Shown here: piece after piece, positions 32,854 through 42,284 of the stretch
Layout of the letters: the number at the start of each line of letters is the position of its first letter
How positions within the stretch are numbered: the stretch's first letter is position 1
NCBI GenBank assembly: GCA_018003015.1
Contig: JAGNEZ010000027.1
Span: 1-64,000 of the forward strand
Length of the DNA stretch: 64,000 bases
DNA from: Phycisphaerae bacterium
GTDB lineage: Bacteria > Planctomycetota > Phycisphaerae > UBA1845 > PWPN01
Reading direction: 5' to 3'
The notes under the pieces: generated by a model
Told to the model about the DNA's origin: nothing
Databases searched by the model: none
The model's input: the letters and a program-made list of their open reading frames with translations, nothing else
Made by a program: the position numbers and the translations under genes

Positions 32854-34710
32854 ATGAACACCCTCACGGTCATCATGGCCAGGGCGGGGAGCAAGGGTTT
32901 GCCCGACAAGTGCTGCCTTCCGCTCTGCGGTCGCCCGGTGATCGCCTACACCATCGGTCATGCCCAGAGGAGCCGGCGGGGCGGAACCATTGTCCTGACC
33001 ACCGACTCAGTGCGTGCCCAAGCGATCGGGCGCTCAATGGGGATCGAGCTGGTGAACCGGCCCCCAGAACTGGCCGTGGACACTGCCCGGGTCGACGATG
33101 TCGTCCGAGACGCGGTTGAGCAGTACGAGCGCCGGTCGGGCTGCAGGGTTGATGTCGTGGTCATCCTGTACGGCAATATTCCCATCCGCGCCGACGGCAT
33201 CATCGACCGGTGTGTCGATCACCTGGTTCAGACCGGATGTGATTCGGTGCGAACCGTCGCCCCTGTATCCAAGCAGCATCCCGACTGGCTCCACCGCCTG
33301 AACGGGGATCGGATGGAGCAATTCAGAGTCAACAGCATCCACCGCCGCCAGGACCTTGAACCGGTCTACTATCACGACGGTGCGGTGATTGCAGTCACCC
33401 GGGCCTCGCTCTTCAATCCGCAGACGCGGAGTGACCCGCACGGCTTCTTCGGGCGCGACCGACGCGCCGTCGTGCAGCGGGCGGAAGATTCCGTAGACAT
33501 CGATACAGCCATGGATTTCTATCAGGCCGAGGCGATGGTTCGTGTCCGGGGCGAGATCGGGCCCGAGCGGGCGATCGAAGCTGACATGATGACCACGAGT
33601 GCCCCGTGGTCTCCGATCTGTGAAGTGAGTGCTGGACACCTGGCCTGCCCGGCGTTCAGGATTGGCGGCACCCTGGTCGGGGCGCCCCGTTCCGCCTTCG
33701 TCATTGCAGAGGCTGGCGTCAACCACGATGGGGACATTCAAGCGGCCCGGGAGTTGGTCGCCGCGGCGGCCGAGGCCGGCGCCGACGCGGTCAAGTTCCA
33801 GGTGTTCGCCGCCCACCGCCTGGTTACGCGGACTTCGCCGGCGGCCGATTACCAGCAGCGGGCGGGTGGAGGCTGCGTCCAGTACGAGATGCTTGAACGT
33901 CTGGAGTTGCGGCATGACGAGTTCGAGGAATTGGCCGCGTTGGCCCGCAGGTCGGGCATTCAGTTTCTGGCCACGCCGTTTTCTGTTCCGGATCTGGATT
34001 TCCTCGTTTCCCTCGGCGTGCCGGCTCTGAAGTTGGCCTCCACCGACATTGTCAATGGCCCCCTATTGGACGCGGCGGCGGCCTCTGGACTACCGATTCT
34101 AGCCTCGACCGGAGCGGCGGACCTCCATGAGGTCTTGGCCGCGGTGGAGCGACTTCGCCGGGGTGAAGCCGGTCCACTCGCCCTGCTGCATTGTATCAGC
34201 AGCTACCCCGCCGATCCGGGCGAGGCCAATTTGGCAGCGATTGGCACACTGGCGAGAGAGTTCAACTGCATCAGCGGCTTCAGCGACCACACCGAGTCGC
34301 TGACCATTGGTGGACTGGCTGTGGCTGCCGGGGCCAAGGTCATCGAGAAGCACATGACTCTCGATCGCAGGCGGTCCGGACCGGATCACTCCTTCTCTCT
34401 CGAACCGAAGGCCATGGCCGAGTATACCCGGTCCGTTCGTGATGCCGCCCGCGTCCTTGGCGAAGGGCAGCTCGAGCCGACGGCGACCCAGCGAGAGGTG
34501 CGCCGGGTATCGCGAGCCAGCGTTGTGGCCGCCCGGGACATCGCCACGGGCGAGGTCCTCGCTCGGACGATGCTGACGACCAAGCGCCCGGGTGATGGGA
34601 TATCTCCCATGAGTATTGACAGCCTGGTTGGGCGACGGGTGCTGCGACCGGTTCCTGCGGACCACCTCATCACCTGGGACATCCTCGAACGGTCCACTGT
34701 TGCCGTATGA
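32854..34710 (+). CDS. Bifunctional CMP-nonulosonate cytidylyltransferase and nonulosonate synthase (NeuA-NeuB fusion)
   Basis: One 618-residue frame joins two enzymes. Residues 1-230 are a NeuA-type CMP-sialate synthetase: MARAGSKGLPDKCCLPLCG carries the nucleotide-binding ARAGSKG(L)P.K motif, and SVDIDT (213-218) the metal-binding Asp. Residues 275-618 are NeuB: AFVIAEAGVNHDG, GADAVKFQ, FLATPFS, GFSDHT, IEKHMTLDR and GPDHSFSLEP, then a SAF domain (VVAARDIATGEVL, TKRPGDGISP). NeuB condenses a hexosamine with phosphoenolpyruvate and NeuA activates the product with CTP. These are usually separate genes. Its TGA overlaps the neuC start as ATGA, giving an apparently complete pathway. Confidence 0.9.
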   Translation: MNTLTVIMARAGSKGLPDKCCLPLCGRPVIAYTIGHAQRSRRGGTIVLTTDSVRAQAIGRSMGIELVNRPPELAVDTARVDDVVRDAVEQYERRSGCRVDVVVILYGNIPIRADGIIDRCVDHLVQTGCDSVRTVAPVSKQHPDWLHRLNGDRMEQFRVNSIHRRQDLEPVYYHDGAVIAVTRASLFNPQTRSDPHGFFGRDRRAVVQRAEDSVDIDTAMDFYQAEAMVRVRGEIGPERAIEADMMTTSAPWSPICEVSAGHLACPAFRIGGTLVGAPRSAFVIAEAGVNHDGDIQAARELVAAAAEAGADAVKFQVFAAHRLVTRTSPAADYQQRAGGGCVQYEMLERLELRHDEFEELAALARRSGIQFLATPFSVPDLDFLVSLGVPALKLASTDIVNGPLLDAAAASGLPILASTGAADLHEVLAAVERLRRGEAGPLALLHCISSYPADPGEANLAAIGTLAREFNCISGFSDHTESLTIGGLAVAAGAKVIEKHMTLDRRRSGPDHSFSLEPKAMAEYTRSVRDAARVLGEGQLEPTATQREVRRVSRASVVAARDIATGEVLARTMLTTKRPGDGISPMSIDSLVGRRVLRPVPADHLITWDILERSTVAV

Positions 34711-36008
34711 CTGCCATCGCCGCCAAAGGACCATCCCGAGCGCGTCACACCTCCTCGGCGAGACACGGCGGTGCCGCTCTCGATAGGAATGACTTGACTG
34801 AAGCCGCCGAGTTTCGGGGGTGCCGGGGCACTGCTGGAGCCCGCGGGCTTCGCCGCGTAGCGGTCATCACGGGTACGCGGGCCGAGTTCGGCCTGTTGGA
34901 GACGGTTCTGCGAGCGATAAAAGCCCGCAAGCGTCCTGAGGTCAGGCTGATCGTGACCGGGATGCACCTGCTGCCAAAATTCGGCCGAACCATCGATCAC
35001 ATCCGCCGTGCAGGCTGGCGTATAGACGCGACCGTGCCCATGCAGACTGGCCGCGACGATGCCGCGGGCGAGGCTCAGGCTGTGGGCCGCGGGGTGGGTG
35101 GCATTGCCCGAGCCCTCGATTGCCTGCGTTGTGATTCGGTCCTCGTTTTGGGTGACCGGATCGAGGCTTTCGCCGGGGCCTGTGCGGCGGCCTGCTCGAG
35201 ACGAATCCTGGTCCACATTCACGGAGGGGATCGTGCAGCGGGGGATGTGGACGATGCCTTGCGCAACGCCATCAGTCGGATGGCCCACGTCCACCTGGTC
35301 GCATCGCAGCAGGCCGCCGACCGCCTCTGCCGGATGGGCGAACAGCCCTTCCGCATCTACCGTGTCGGGGCGCCGGGGCTAGACGACATCCGCCTGTTTC
35401 GCCAGACGGATCGACGTGACCGCCGGCCGGCCGACAGGCGTGTCGCCGCCCTACTGGGCCCGATCGCGGCCGACTCTTACGCCCTGGTTGCGTTGCACCC
35501 TCGTGGCCGACCAGCCCGAACCGAGGCGGTCACCGCCCAGCGTCTGGCTGCTGCCGTGGAGGCATACGGTCTTGCGGGCATTGCCGTTTACCCCAACAGT
35601 GACCCGGGCCACGAGGGGATTCTCGAGGTGCTGGCCGCCGTCGCGGATCGCCCCTGGTGGCGTGTTTTCCCTTCGCTGACACGCGACGACTACATTCGGG
35701 TGGCGTCCCGAGCGACCGTTTTGGTCGGCAACTCGTCGAGCGGCATCATCGAATCGGCGAGCCTGGGACTGACGGCCGTCGATATCGGACCTCGCCAGAA
35801 CGGTCGCCTGGCCTGCGGCCCCGGCGTGATCCACTGTGGTGAATCGCTGGCGGACATAAGCCGCGGCATCCGCCTCGCGGTGAGCCGCCGAAAGCCTGCG
35901 GCTGGATGCTCTGTCTACGGCGACGGGCGTGCGGGGCTACGCATTGCCCGAATCCTCTCGCGTCTGATAATCTCGCCTGTGCTGGCCCGCAAGGAACTGG
36001 TGTACTAG
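34707..36008 (+). CDS. neuC: Hydrolysing UDP-N-acetylglucosamine 2-epimerase (NeuC/LegG type)
   Basis: This 433-residue protein overlaps the preceding gene by 4 bases. After a 50-residue extension the GT-B-like epimerase fold begins with VAVITGTRAEFGLLETVL. It has the motifs of NeuC-type hydrolysing epimerases: VTGMHLLPKFGRT, LVLGDRIEAFAGA, VHIHGGDRA, AHVHLVASQ, ALHPRGRP, VYPNSDPGH and VGNSSSGIIESASLG. The enzyme makes ManNAc (or the 2,4-diacetamido analogue for legionaminate) and UDP from the UDP-sugar, supplying the substrate for NeuB. The C-terminal helices look complete. The N-terminal extension may be a mis-start, but no better ATG is evident. Confidence 0.88.
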   Translation: MTAIAAKGPSRARHTSSARHGGAALDRNDLTEAAEFRGCRGTAGARGLRRVAVITGTRAEFGLLETVLRAIKARKRPEVRLIVTGMHLLPKFGRTIDHIRRAGWRIDATVPMQTGRDDAAGEAQAVGRGVGGIARALDCLRCDSVLVLGDRIEAFAGACAAACSRRILVHIHGGDRAAGDVDDALRNAISRMAHVHLVASQQAADRLCRMGEQPFRIYRVGAPGLDDIRLFRQTDRRDRRPADRRVAALLGPIAADSYALVALHPRGRPARTEAVTAQRLAAAVEAYGLAGIAVYPNSDPGHEGILEVLAAVADRPWWRVFPSLTRDDYIRVASRATVLVGNSSSGIIESASLGLTAVDIGPRQNGRLACGPGVIHCGESLADISRGIRLAVSRRKPAAGCSVYGDGRAGLRIARILSRLIISPVLARKELVY

Positions 36009-36182: not shown

Positions 36183-37064
36183 ATGCCTAGTACAACAGCA
36201 GTTCCTGACGCCGCACAGGTCATCAAGCTGGCCCTCGGGAGGATCGGCGAGGTTGCCACGCTGCCGGAGGTGACCGCCAAGATCATCTCGGTGGTGGATG
36301 ACCCCAAGAGCACGGCCCGTGATCTGCATCACATCATCAAGAACGACCCGGCGCTGGCGACCAAGATCATGAAGGTCGTCAACTCCGCGTTCTATGGCCT
36401 GCCGGGACAGGTGTCGGATCTCGACCGGGCGATTGTCCTTCTGGGGCTGAGCGCGGTCAAGAACATCGCGATTTCGGCTTCCATCAGTCGTCTCTTCACC
36501 AGCGACAAGATGTCCGACAAGTTCAGTGCCCGCGACCTATGGAAGCACAGCGTGGCCGTCGGCGTGGCGACTCGACAGTTCTGCTGTCTGATCGGCAAGA
36601 AGGCATTTGCGGAGGAGGCGTTCCTAGGAGGTCTGATCCACGATCTTGGTCTGCTGGTTCAGCGTCAAGCTTTCACCGATCAGTTCGCGGAGGTGATCCA
36701 GGTGGCCTCCAAGGGCGAGACGCGATTCTGCCAAGCGGAGGCCGAGATCATCGGTGCTGACCATCAGGTCCTCGGGGCGGCCTTGGCAGCCAAGTGGAAG
36801 TTCCCGCGCGGCCTGCAGACCGTGCTGGGCTATCACCACCATATCACCAACCTCAGCGAGGACCATCGCATCCTGCCGTCCATCGTCTACGTGGGCGACG
36901 TCCTCTGCTGCCACGAACGAATCGGCTTCCACCTCACCGCGGAAGGTCAACCGCTCGACAGCGGTTTACTCGAATCGGTTGGCCTGACCGAGGCGGACCT
37001 CAACAAGGTGCGCGAGGAGTTGCCCGAACTGATTGTGGCGGTTGAGGATATCCTCATGGCCTGA
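36183..37064 (+). CDS. HDOD-domain signalling protein
   Basis: This 293-residue soluble protein consists of an HDOD domain (about 15-215): LPEVTAKIISVVDDPKSTARDL, IIKNDPALATKIMKVVNSAFYG, AIVLLGLSAVKNIAISAS, WKHSVAVGVATRQF, AFLGGLIHDLGLLVQ, HQVLGAALAAKWKFP and IVYVGDVLC. HDOD proteins resemble HD phosphohydrolases, but most are thought to be non-catalytic signalling modules that regulate motility, the cell cycle or c-di-GMP responses. One HD pair (IHDLG) is retained here. It is monocistronic. No adjacent signalling partner is visible, though the Hpt protein at 30814 is in the same region. Confidence 0.93.
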   Translation: MPSTTAVPDAAQVIKLALGRIGEVATLPEVTAKIISVVDDPKSTARDLHHIIKNDPALATKIMKVVNSAFYGLPGQVSDLDRAIVLLGLSAVKNIAISASISRLFTSDKMSDKFSARDLWKHSVAVGVATRQFCCLIGKKAFAEEAFLGGLIHDLGLLVQRQAFTDQFAEVIQVASKGETRFCQAEAEIIGADHQVLGAALAAKWKFPRGLQTVLGYHHHITNLSEDHRILPSIVYVGDVLCCHERIGFHLTAEGQPLDSGLLESVGLTEADLNKVREELPELIVAVEDILMA

Positions 37065-38945: not shown

Positions 38946-38999
38946 CCCGGCAACTCCCAGCTGACCGACTCATGTTTGTGCAGTGAAAGGAGCTTACGC

Positions 39000-41900
39000 A
39001 TGCCGCAATGGAGTCTTTGGTTTGTCTTCAGCGTCATCGCGACGACCGGGGTCGGGCGGCAGACGGCCCAGGCCAAGGTGGGCGAAGCGGTCAACCTGGC
39101 GGACTTCGCCCGAGTCGTCAAGTACGTCGGCGATTCGCCGGAGACTTTGCAGGTTCGGGAGCTCGAGCAAGGCAGCGAGGGATGGGAACCCTGGCGTGGC
39201 GACGACAACGAGTACATGATCGGTCTCGAGTGGGACGAGCCGAGAGACGTGTGCCTGGTCGAAATCGAGTTCCGGCACGCCATTTCCGATCGAGACAAGA
39301 TTCGCGTGCAGTATTATCAGGACCATTGGCCGAGTGCCGAGACAGGCGGGTGGGCGGGAGTTGATGATCCTTTCCACGGCAAGTGGGTCACCGCCAAGGC
39401 GGACTGGTGGGCAGGCGATCGGGACGTCACCTTCGCGTTCCTGCCCTACGACCAGGAGCAGCCCGGCGCCGGGGCTCCGGACGTCATCTACCGTCGGACC
39501 TACCGTTTGCGGTTTCTCCTTGGGAGGCGGGACATCGAACTGCCTGCGGTTAGATACTTCCGGGTTTATGGTCCCCGGAAGACGCTCTCGGCGAAGTTCG
39601 ACATCCGCTTCGAGCCCCGAGGCAAGCTGCGTCTTCCGCTGGACGTCTCGGTGGTTAACGGTGACATCATCGACCGACTGGTTGGCGACACGACGATCCA
39701 GAGCTGGGTGCTGAATCGCGAGCCCACCAGTCTCGAAGTCAACTACCTCGAGGACCTGGAGACCCCGAGCCGCACCGTGGTCACACTCCGCTCGCCGGAG
39801 AATCCGCTTGTGGGCATGTCGTTTCTTCCGGCTGAGGTCGTCAAGCACGGGATCATGCGCGTTCCCTCGATGGGCATCGTGATCGCTCACGTTGGCAGCA
39901 GGCAAGCTCTCCAGGCGGGATCAAGGACGGGAATCTCGGTTTTCGATCGGGTGGCAACGGAGCCGGAGCAGAGCTGGGAGCGGGCCCGGCGAGAGATTCC
40001 CGAGCTCAGGAAAAGCCGACAGGTCCACCTTCCGCTGCACCTGCCGCTCGGGCCGCCGGATGCCCGCCAGGAAATCGCGGTTAGTTACGATGGGAGCATC
40101 CTGCTGAGCAAGTCGGCACTCAAAGTGCCCGCGGCGGACAGCGACCGGATGCACTTCCCTGCGGACGAGTGGTACATCCGGGTGGATACCGGCACGCGGG
40201 CATTCGACCGAACAACGGAGGGAAACGTCAAGCAGCGACTGGTGGACGGCTATCTGCCCATCGTGGTCAACTCGTGGGAACACGAGGGTGTCAAGTATGA
40301 GGAGACCTCGGTCGCCACGTTCCTCGACGGCGAGCCGCGGGAGATCCGAGGTGACGAGACCGTTGTCCTGCTGACCCGGTTGACCATGACCAATCCCGGC
40401 AGCGGCCCGGTTACGGCGGCGGCCGCACTCAGCAGCGATCCCGGGGAGCAGCTGATCCTGGAGTCGGGGCACGTCTCGGCCCGAGCGGCGATTCGCGAGA
40501 AAAAAGCGAGTGTCTATCACCGTCCGCAGTATCGGTACCACGTCAGGAGCAGTGCCGAGGTCATCCGAATCGAATCCCACGGCAGCGACGGCGCGGAGGC
40601 CATTGTATGGCAAGGCCGACTGGCGGCCGGACAGTCCGTGGTTCTCGAGTGGTTTGTGCCCTTTGTCACCATCGATACTGACGTCGAGCGGCGTGCGATC
40701 GCCGGGCTCGATTTCGACAAGGTCCTCAAGAGCGAGAGCGAGCGGTGGCAGGCCATCATTGCCGGACAAGCCACCATCGAAGTTCCCGACCCGCTGCTCA
40801 ACGATTTCTACAAGGCCCAGCTGGCTCACATTCTGATCACCGCCGATCGTGATCCGTACGGAGGCTTTCGCGTTCTGCCGGCGGCCACGCTCAGCTACAA
40901 CGTGTGCATGAACGAGTCCTGCCATCAAATCCGGGCGCTGGAGGTGCGTGGTTTGCACGCGCACGCACAACAGTATCTGGATGCGTTTCTCACGGGTCAG
41001 TCCACGCGCGGTCTTCATGGCCGGTTCACCGACAAGCACGGTGTCATCCACGGCCTGCCGAGCATAAACGGCAACTACCAGACGTTCAACTACAACCTGG
41101 ACCACGGTTTCGCCCTGTGGATGCTGAACGAGCACTACCGCTTCACTCGTGACAAGGGTTGGCTATCGGCCGTGACCGGTCAGCTGGTTGCGGCCTGCGA
41201 TTTCGTGACCCGCCAGAGCAGGCTCCCGGCTGAATCCAACACCCTGGGCAAGGACGATGCTCGATGGGGCGAAGGGCTATTGCCTCCGGGTCACCTCGAG
41301 GACCCGCCCGAATGGTTGTGGTGGTTCGCGGTGAATGCCTACGCCGCTCGGGGGATGCGAATGACCGCTGAGTCGCTGGCCGAGATCCACGCTCCTGAAG
41401 CGGCCCGGATCGCCCGCGAGGCGACCGCGTTCAGCAAACACCTCGAAGACTCGTGCCGGGAGGCGATGGTGCAAGCGCCGGTTGTCCGCCTCCGAGATGG
41501 CACCTACGTGCCCTTTCAGCCGACGCGGAGCCGGCTGCGCGGACGTGATCTTGGCTGGATCCGTGACGCTCTCTATGGCCCCGTACATCTGATCGATTGC
41601 GGCGTGTTCACGCCGGATTCGCCCGAGGCCGAGTGGATCCTCCGCGATACGGAGGACAACGTATTCATCGGCGAGGAACGAGGACGAGGACTCGACGACT
41701 TCGAGAGACGGTGGTTCAGTTGGGGTGGGATCACGATTCAATCGAACCTGCTGCCCAATCCGCTGGTGTACCTGCAGCGCGGCCAGGGCAAGCATGCCGT
41801 CCGGGCGTTCTACAACAGCCTGGCCGCCAACGTGTACGCCGACGTTCGGGCCTTCACCGAACACCCGGTTGCGGCGTACGGGCTGGGCCAAGGACCAAAC

Positions 41901-42284
41901 TACAAGACGCCCGACGAATCCGCCTTCGTCGTCTGGCTCCGCTCGCTGCTGGTGTTCGAGCGCGGCCAGGAACTCGACTTGCTGGCCGGAGTACCGCAGG
42001 AATGGCTAGGGCCGGGCAAGAAGATCACGATACGGGGCGCGGCGACCTGGTTCGGGCCCCTCGATCTGGCAGCTGAAGTGGCGGCAGATGGACGGCAGCT
42101 GTCGGTCAAGCTCAGTAGTCCCAGCCGCAATCCGCCCAAGGCCATCCGGCTGCACACCCGGTTACCTGGCAAGGTGGCGGCCGTGACCCTCAACGGCGCT
42201 GCCCTCTCGACCTTCGATGCCCAGGGAGGCATCGTCACACTGCCGGGCAACGTCGGCCGGGCGGAGATCATCATCGCGCATTGA
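39000..42284 (+). CDS. Large secreted six-hairpin glycosidase-like protein
   Basis: This 1,094-residue protein starts at ATG 39000 with GAAAGGAG upstream; it has a short signal peptide (FVFSVIATTGVGRQTAQA). Residues about 25-210 form a beta domain (VCLVEIEFRHAIS, VRYFRVYGPR). The middle is a super-beta-sandwich. About residues 630-1,000 form an (alpha/alpha)6 barrel: DPYGGFRVLPAATLSYNVCMNESC, GLPSINGNYQTFNYNLDHGFALWMLNEHY, GEGLLPPGHLEDPP and FSWGGITIQSNLLPNPLVYL. The C-terminus is a small beta domain. This resembles GH78/GH95/GH116-like enzymes, but the catalytic acids cannot be assigned. The position directly after a polysaccharide synthase gene suggests it trims that polymer. Confidence 0.75.
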   Translation: MPQWSLWFVFSVIATTGVGRQTAQAKVGEAVNLADFARVVKYVGDSPETLQVRELEQGSEGWEPWRGDDNEYMIGLEWDEPRDVCLVEIEFRHAISDRDKIRVQYYQDHWPSAETGGWAGVDDPFHGKWVTAKADWWAGDRDVTFAFLPYDQEQPGAGAPDVIYRRTYRLRFLLGRRDIELPAVRYFRVYGPRKTLSAKFDIRFEPRGKLRLPLDVSVVNGDIIDRLVGDTTIQSWVLNREPTSLEVNYLEDLETPSRTVVTLRSPENPLVGMSFLPAEVVKHGIMRVPSMGIVIAHVGSRQALQAGSRTGISVFDRVATEPEQSWERARREIPELRKSRQVHLPLHLPLGPPDARQEIAVSYDGSILLSKSALKVPAADSDRMHFPADEWYIRVDTGTRAFDRTTEGNVKQRLVDGYLPIVVNSWEHEGVKYEETSVATFLDGEPREIRGDETVVLLTRLTMTNPGSGPVTAAAALSSDPGEQLILESGHVSARAAIREKKASVYHRPQYRYHVRSSAEVIRIESHGSDGAEAIVWQGRLAAGQSVVLEWFVPFVTIDTDVERRAIAGLDFDKVLKSESERWQAIIAGQATIEVPDPLLNDFYKAQLAHILITADRDPYGGFRVLPAATLSYNVCMNESCHQIRALEVRGLHAHAQQYLDAFLTGQSTRGLHGRFTDKHGVIHGLPSINGNYQTFNYNLDHGFALWMLNEHYRFTRDKGWLSAVTGQLVAACDFVTRQSRLPAESNTLGKDDARWGEGLLPPGHLEDPPEWLWWFAVNAYAARGMRMTAESLAEIHAPEAARIAREATAFSKHLEDSCREAMVQAPVVRLRDGTYVPFQPTRSRLRGRDLGWIRDALYGPVHLIDCGVFTPDSPEAEWILRDTEDNVFIGEERGRGLDDFERRWFSWGGITIQSNLLPNPLVYLQRGQGKHAVRAFYNSLAANVYADVRAFTEHPVAAYGLGQGPNYKTPDESAFVVWLRSLLVFERGQELDLLAGVPQEWLGPGKKITIRGAATWFGPLDLAAEVAADGRQLSVKLSSPSRNPPKAIRLHTRLPGKVAAVTLNGAALSTFDAQGGIVTLPGNVGRAEIIIAH

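Follow-up and report, generated by a model that had tools for sequence, protein, structure and literature searches.

A predicted bifunctional NeuA-NeuB fusion enzyme in Planctomycetota that overlaps neuC and most likely serves flagellin glycosylation

The window, a 64,000-nucleotide stretch of DNA from a Phycisphaerae bacterium, encodes one protein that joins a NeuA-type CMP-nonulosonate synthetase to a NeuB-type nonulosonate synthase, and its gene overlaps that of a NeuC-type epimerase. The locus as a whole is best explained by a bifunctional NeuA-NeuB enzyme that, together with NeuC, provides CMP-nonulosonate to Maf for flagellin and that belongs to a recurrent set of fusions, a reading to which we assign a probability of about 0.72. 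The fusion is genuine and, within the search made, undescribed: a literature search found no published report of a NeuA-NeuB fusion. The pathway itself is well known, and the fusion is a variant of it that recurs. Such a natural bifunctional enzyme should convert a ManNAc-type sugar, PEP, and CTP to an activated nonulosonate, which would be useful for glyco-engineering. The features of the locus are as follows:

32854..33543, plus strand: NeuA (CMP-nonulosonate synthetase) domain, residues 1-230, assigned from PF02348, solved relatives, and the metal-binding Asp residues
33544..33639, plus strand: interdomain linker, residues 231-262, with pLDDT of <50 at 236-263 and relaxed sequence between siblings
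33640..34707, plus strand: NeuB (nonulosonate synthase) domain, residues 263-618, assigned from PF03102, PF08666, active-site residues, and fold
34516-34680, plus strand: SAF domain at the C terminus of NeuB (PF08666)
34707..34710, plus strand: ATGA overlap of the neuAB stop (TGA) with the neuC start (ATG), seen in the sequence and as a -4 overlap in most relatives
34707..36008, plus strand: NeuC-type hydrolyzing UDP-sugar 2-epimerase, 433 amino acids (Epimerase_2; TIGR03568 above cut-off)
36183..37064, plus strand: HDOD-domain protein downstream of neuC (PF08668)

The neuAB gene is a single open reading frame of 618 residues that starts with ATG and spans 32854-34710 on the plus strand. Pfam matches to CTP_transf_3 (residues 6-140, 6e-14), NeuB (residues 301-538, 3e-77), and SAF (residues 555-609, 5e-12) all lie above their gathering scores. 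Among NCBIfam models, the NeuB part scores 352.2 bits with N-acetylneuraminate synthase TIGR03569, below the cut-off of 399.65, and lower still with PseI (245.9), while the NeuA part is a weak match to PseF (86 versus a cut-off of 205.7). In alignments that use Neisseria numbering, NeuB retains the catalytic and substrate residues E25, K53, Q55, K129, H215, H236, D247, and R314, with one Glu replaced by Asp as in the Leptospira enzyme. NeuA retains R12, K21, R165, D209, and D211; its metal-binding Asp pair corresponds to D215 and D217 of the window protein, and the nucleotide-binding Arg and Lys and the sugar-carboxylate Arg are also present. With its CTP_transf_3 domain, Asp pair, and carboxylate Arg, the first half is predicted to be a NeuA/PseF-type CMP-nonulosonate synthetase, and the second half has the TIM barrel, the SAF domain, and the PEP, metal, and sugar residues of a nonulosonate synthase. 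The proteins resemble Neisseria CMP-Neu5Ac synthetase (1eyr), NeuB (1xuu), and the TIGR03568 and TIGR03569 families in their three expected reactions, folds, and main catalytic residues. Unlike systems with separate NeuA, NeuB, and NeuC, the window has NeuA and NeuB in one polypeptide.

A preliminary description of this DNA had reported NeuA, NeuB, and SAF in one frame, and the reading frame, the domain matches, and a sibling species agree with it. It had also named loss of key residues and a frame break at the linker as grounds for doubt; the catalytic residues of NeuA and NeuB are all kept, and the frame runs intact through the linker in both species. We give practically no weight to an assembly or sequencing artifact, despite the draft state of the assembly (144 contigs; 98.7% complete, with neuAB in single copy). 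The sibling-species locus L031, from the same genus, has the same 623-codon open frame at 95% amino acid identity and aligns with no indel within genes, which rules the artifact out, and fused frames occur in many other genomes. Codon changes between the two loci number 23 synonymous and 10 replacement in NeuA, 35 and 16 in NeuB, and 3 and 4 in the linker, which is relaxed. In each domain, substitutions are concentrated at the third codon position, and both domains have been under purifying selection since the fusion.

The overlap of the neuAB stop codon with the neuC start, noted earlier, is confirmed as ATGA, and its conservation at -4 in most relatives examined suggests that the two genes are translationally coupled. 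NeuC has a loosely conserved N-terminal extension of ∼48 amino acids, and an alternative in-frame start, TTG, lies 83 nt past the neuAB stop. The protein passes TIGR03568 (319.8 versus 235.9 bits), and the solved structures nearest to it are UDP-diacetylbacillosamine epimerase and then human GNE. Where characterized enzymes have GGE, the window NeuC has GGD: the conserved Glu of the HGGE/EGGE motif, present in 5zlr and GNE, is Asp here, as it is order-wide in 56 of 69 relatives. In the RHAI motif that follows, the window NeuC has Asn in place of His, a change found in nine rows that include most of the window's family.

In the proposed pathway, NeuC would hydrolyze and epimerize a UDP-HexNAc to yield a ManNAc-type sugar. 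The NeuB domain would combine this sugar with PEP, and the resulting nonulosonic acid would be activated with CTP by the NeuA domain. The CMP-nonulosonate would then most likely be used by the single Maf glycosyltransferase of the genome on flagellin. The earlier proposal that two polypeptides could carry out the whole route from UDP-sugar to CMP-nonulosonate is consistent with the intact catalytic residues and the consecutive NeuC, NeuB, and NeuA steps. Its caution that the sugar cannot be told from sequence also stands, as NeuB and NeuC look Neu/Leg-type and the NeuA pocket is unlike that of a CMP-Neu5Ac synthetase. Among solved structures, NeuB is closest to a Leptospira synthase and to Bacillus SpsE, with Neisseria NeuB behind them, and one published account reports the sps genes as a legionaminic acid pathway (PMC7439481). 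In the NeuA sugar pocket, YGNIPIR stands in place of QPTSPLR, and relative to Neisseria NeuA, Gln104 is replaced by Tyr, Lys142 by Asp, Ser82 by Val, and Asn175 by Asp; the Tyr is common to 58 of 77 relatives. Gln104 and Lys142 are needed for Neu5Ac use by the Neisseria enzyme, which is severely impaired by their mutation (PMC2901514). Because both are replaced here, Neu5Ac activity is doubtful, and by these two residues the window NeuA would not be classed as a strict CMP-Neu5Ac synthetase. The CMP-Pse5Ac7Ac synthetase of Aeromonas caviae (9ftb, 9ftc) shares the Tyr at the Gln104 position and an HD motif near Asn175 with the window NeuA, but the two are only 23 to 24% identical and the window enzyme partners NeuB and NeuC types rather than PseI and PseG.

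A dedicated legionaminate or pseudaminate pathway was considered for this genome and rejected: the LegB, LegC, and PseB equivalogs (TIGR04180, TIGR04181, and TIGR03589) match only below cut-off, no family of such a pathway is above cut-off, and the best aminotransferase, which is PseC-like, lies beside isocitrate dehydrogenase. Scattered through the genome are a 730-residue frame containing a PseB-related dehydratase, aminotransferases that resemble PseC/LegC but fall short of the cut-off, and a member of the NeuD family that exceeds its own. The precursor may be ManNAc or a 6-deoxy diamino sugar.

In an AlphaFold model of the fusion protein (mean pLDDT of 90), both domains are well folded and residues 236-263 are disordered. 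The linker described earlier is present, but it is about 28 to 32 residues long rather than ∼45. In Foldseek searches, the NeuB half matches NeuB and PseI (folds 1xuu, 8h2c, and 6ncs) and the NeuA half matches CMP-Neu5Ac and CMP-Pse synthetases. Both NeuA- and NeuB-type enzymes are dimeric in known relatives, and the fusion is therefore likely to assemble into dimers or larger complexes. The Neisseria CMP-Neu5Ac synthetase, for example, is a dimer (PMC2901514). The arrangement of the domains is uncertain (pTM of 0.62), and channeling of an unstable keto-sugar acid, suggested in the preliminary description, is unsupported because the model gives two folded domains joined by a loose tether. In their free form, nonulosonic acids are stable, and the labile species is the CMP-activated form. 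What the model appears to support is tethering; a closed channel is without support in it.

Neighborhoods of neuA and neuB were gathered from whole-genome searches of Planctomycetota and from plasmids. They contain 81 distinct adjacent neuA-neuB pairs, 77 of them from Planctomycetota, with 32 in one frame and 49 as two genes; because the pairs were collected through their similarity to the fused query, 32 of 81 should not be read as an unbiased frequency. The preliminary description knew of no common bacterial family with this domain order, but rarity within the lineage is unsupported. Split pairs mostly overlap by 4 to 20 nt (ATGA or GTGA at -4, or -8 to -20), and therefore a single small indel or frameshift switches a pair between the split and fused states. 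A maximum-likelihood tree of NeuA plus NeuB requires no fewer than 14 switches between the two states. A topology in which all 25 fused rows from the main set form a single clade is rejected (ΔlnL = 601, AU P = 1.9e-6), and with it one ancient fusion. The window and L031 are the sole fused members of a nine-row family clade with 100% support, and because they are nested among split relatives, the fusion in the window is recent and derived; for groups outside this family clade, the tree gives no direction of change. In the fused loci L008, L014, L022, L115, L127, L138, and L139, NeuA is only 25 to 32% identical to that of the window, so different NeuA lineages have been joined to NeuB. The plasmid matches covering both domains that were inspected are separate genes with no fusion, and of three phage records that match, the one covering both domains is annotated as two genes. 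The Leptospira NeuB with a C-terminal phosphatase domain (PMC3438082) is also a synthase fused to a neighboring pathway step, but with another partner and at the opposite end of NeuB. Fused and split versions within one order make repeated gene fusion a natural experiment.

The fusion would have arisen by a small change that put two overlapping, cotranscribed genes into one frame, and such joinings, or their reversals, have occurred many times in Planctomycetota. Any benefit would come from tethering and a fixed 1:1 stoichiometry rather than from a sealed channel. We rate the chance that there is no benefit, with overlapping genes drifting between the fused and split states and the product behaving as two independent enzymes, at somewhat under even. 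The many switches on the tree fit such drift, as does a linker that is variable in length and sequence, relaxed within the genus, and disordered in the model. The linker also contains in-frame ATG codons at 33586 and 33589, without a clear Shine-Dalgarno sequence; an internal start there could be allowed and may still yield free NeuB. Maf and SPASM share a frame in two other genomes, which suggests that adjacent operon genes fuse readily. Against neutrality, two groups stay fused over large divergence although one frameshift would suffice to split them: L008, L014, and L022, which span two families, and L115, L127, L138, and L139. A neutral fusion is compatible with the main pathway and with flagellin as the destination. 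A more ambitious reading, which we consider rather unlikely, has the fusion repeatedly evolved and selectively maintained with at least two NeuA lineages, serving a Maf/SPASM/HDOD flagellin glycosylation operon and making an undescribed CMP-nonulosonate; the last element is suggested by the changes in the NeuA pocket and in the NeuC motif.

Maf proteins are known to attach nonulosonic acids to flagellin by O-glycosylation (PMC11339370, PMC4065374). The window's own genome has both maf and flagellin genes: five flagellins and one PF01973 Maf (L152:8585-10561, minus strand, contig C15), for which PF01973 scores far above and Maf_flag10_N just under the gathering score. Among 392 genomes of the phylum, a NeuB-like gene is found in 70 of 77 with Maf versus 71 of 315 without (Fisher P = 2e-29), an association confounded by shared ancestry and flagella. 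Maf was found in 59 of the 61 genomes searched from the window's order and nearer; in 33 of the 62 genomes compared, it sits no more than 12 kb from neuA or neuB. Elsewhere in the phylum, in other families and classes, the genes of the operon run Maf, radical-SAM/SPASM, neuA, neuB, neuC, HDOD; L162 and L164 have this complete series in one locus, and L159 and L160 have the identical series up to neuC with neuA and neuB fused. The HDOD gene, the last of the complete series, is a conserved neighbor of neuC across the order and adjoins it in 25 of 46 loci, the window among them. The preliminary description named no destination for the sugar. On the basis of co-occurrence, operon linkage, and order-wide presence, flagellin O-glycosylation is the best-supported use, and neuABC most likely supplies the CMP-nonulosonate for it.

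Delivery of the sugar to a cell surface polysaccharide or another glycoprotein is, in our judgment, unlikely. It would account for the NeuB-like matches in genomes that lack Maf, and on Sinorhizobium pSymB the same neuA-neuB-neuC order, with 4-nt overlaps, lies beside capsule export genes. There the genes are unfused, unlike those of the window, and the gene after them carries a polysialyltransferase family annotation. A polysialyltransferase acceptor pathway was rejected for the window's genome, which has no PF07388 match, and the near-universal presence of Maf in the order and its sharing of one operon with neuABC elsewhere also argue against this destination.

Flagellin glycosylation thus remains the preferred use, and it ties an uncharacterized planctomycete operon (Maf, SPASM radical-SAM, neuABC, and HDOD) to this process. 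To our knowledge, there has been little or no experimental study of flagellin glycosylation in Planctomycetota. As in the Maf systems of Aeromonas, Campylobacter, and Clostridium (PMC4065374, PMC11339370), nonulosonate genes are linked to maf in relatives of the window, and flagellins are present; the planctomycete operon differs in its extra radical-SAM/SPASM and HDOD genes, and in the window's genome maf is unlinked. Against this use of the sugar, the Maf and SPASM genes there lie on another contig than neuAB, which has housekeeping genes upstream of it. The upstream c7 and c3 genes in relatives were considered as Maf and its partner and are instead an uncharacterized protein and a sigma factor.

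The radical-SAM/SPASM protein adjoining Maf (L152:6914-8560, contig C15) is a distant relative of spiro-SPASM TIGR04321, below cut-off, and the operon position of its gene suggests a role in the flagellin glycan. Maf and radical-SAM/SPASM occupy one open frame in L162 (1502-5296, 1265 codons) and L164 (1066-5478, 1471 codons), which may be another recurrent fusion within this operon, and similarly long Maf frames (>1100 codons) are found in about a dozen other members of the class. Directly behind a GT2 glycosyltransferase, the window also encodes a 1102-residue protein (38976-42284) that has no Pfam match and is conserved in the sibling genome.
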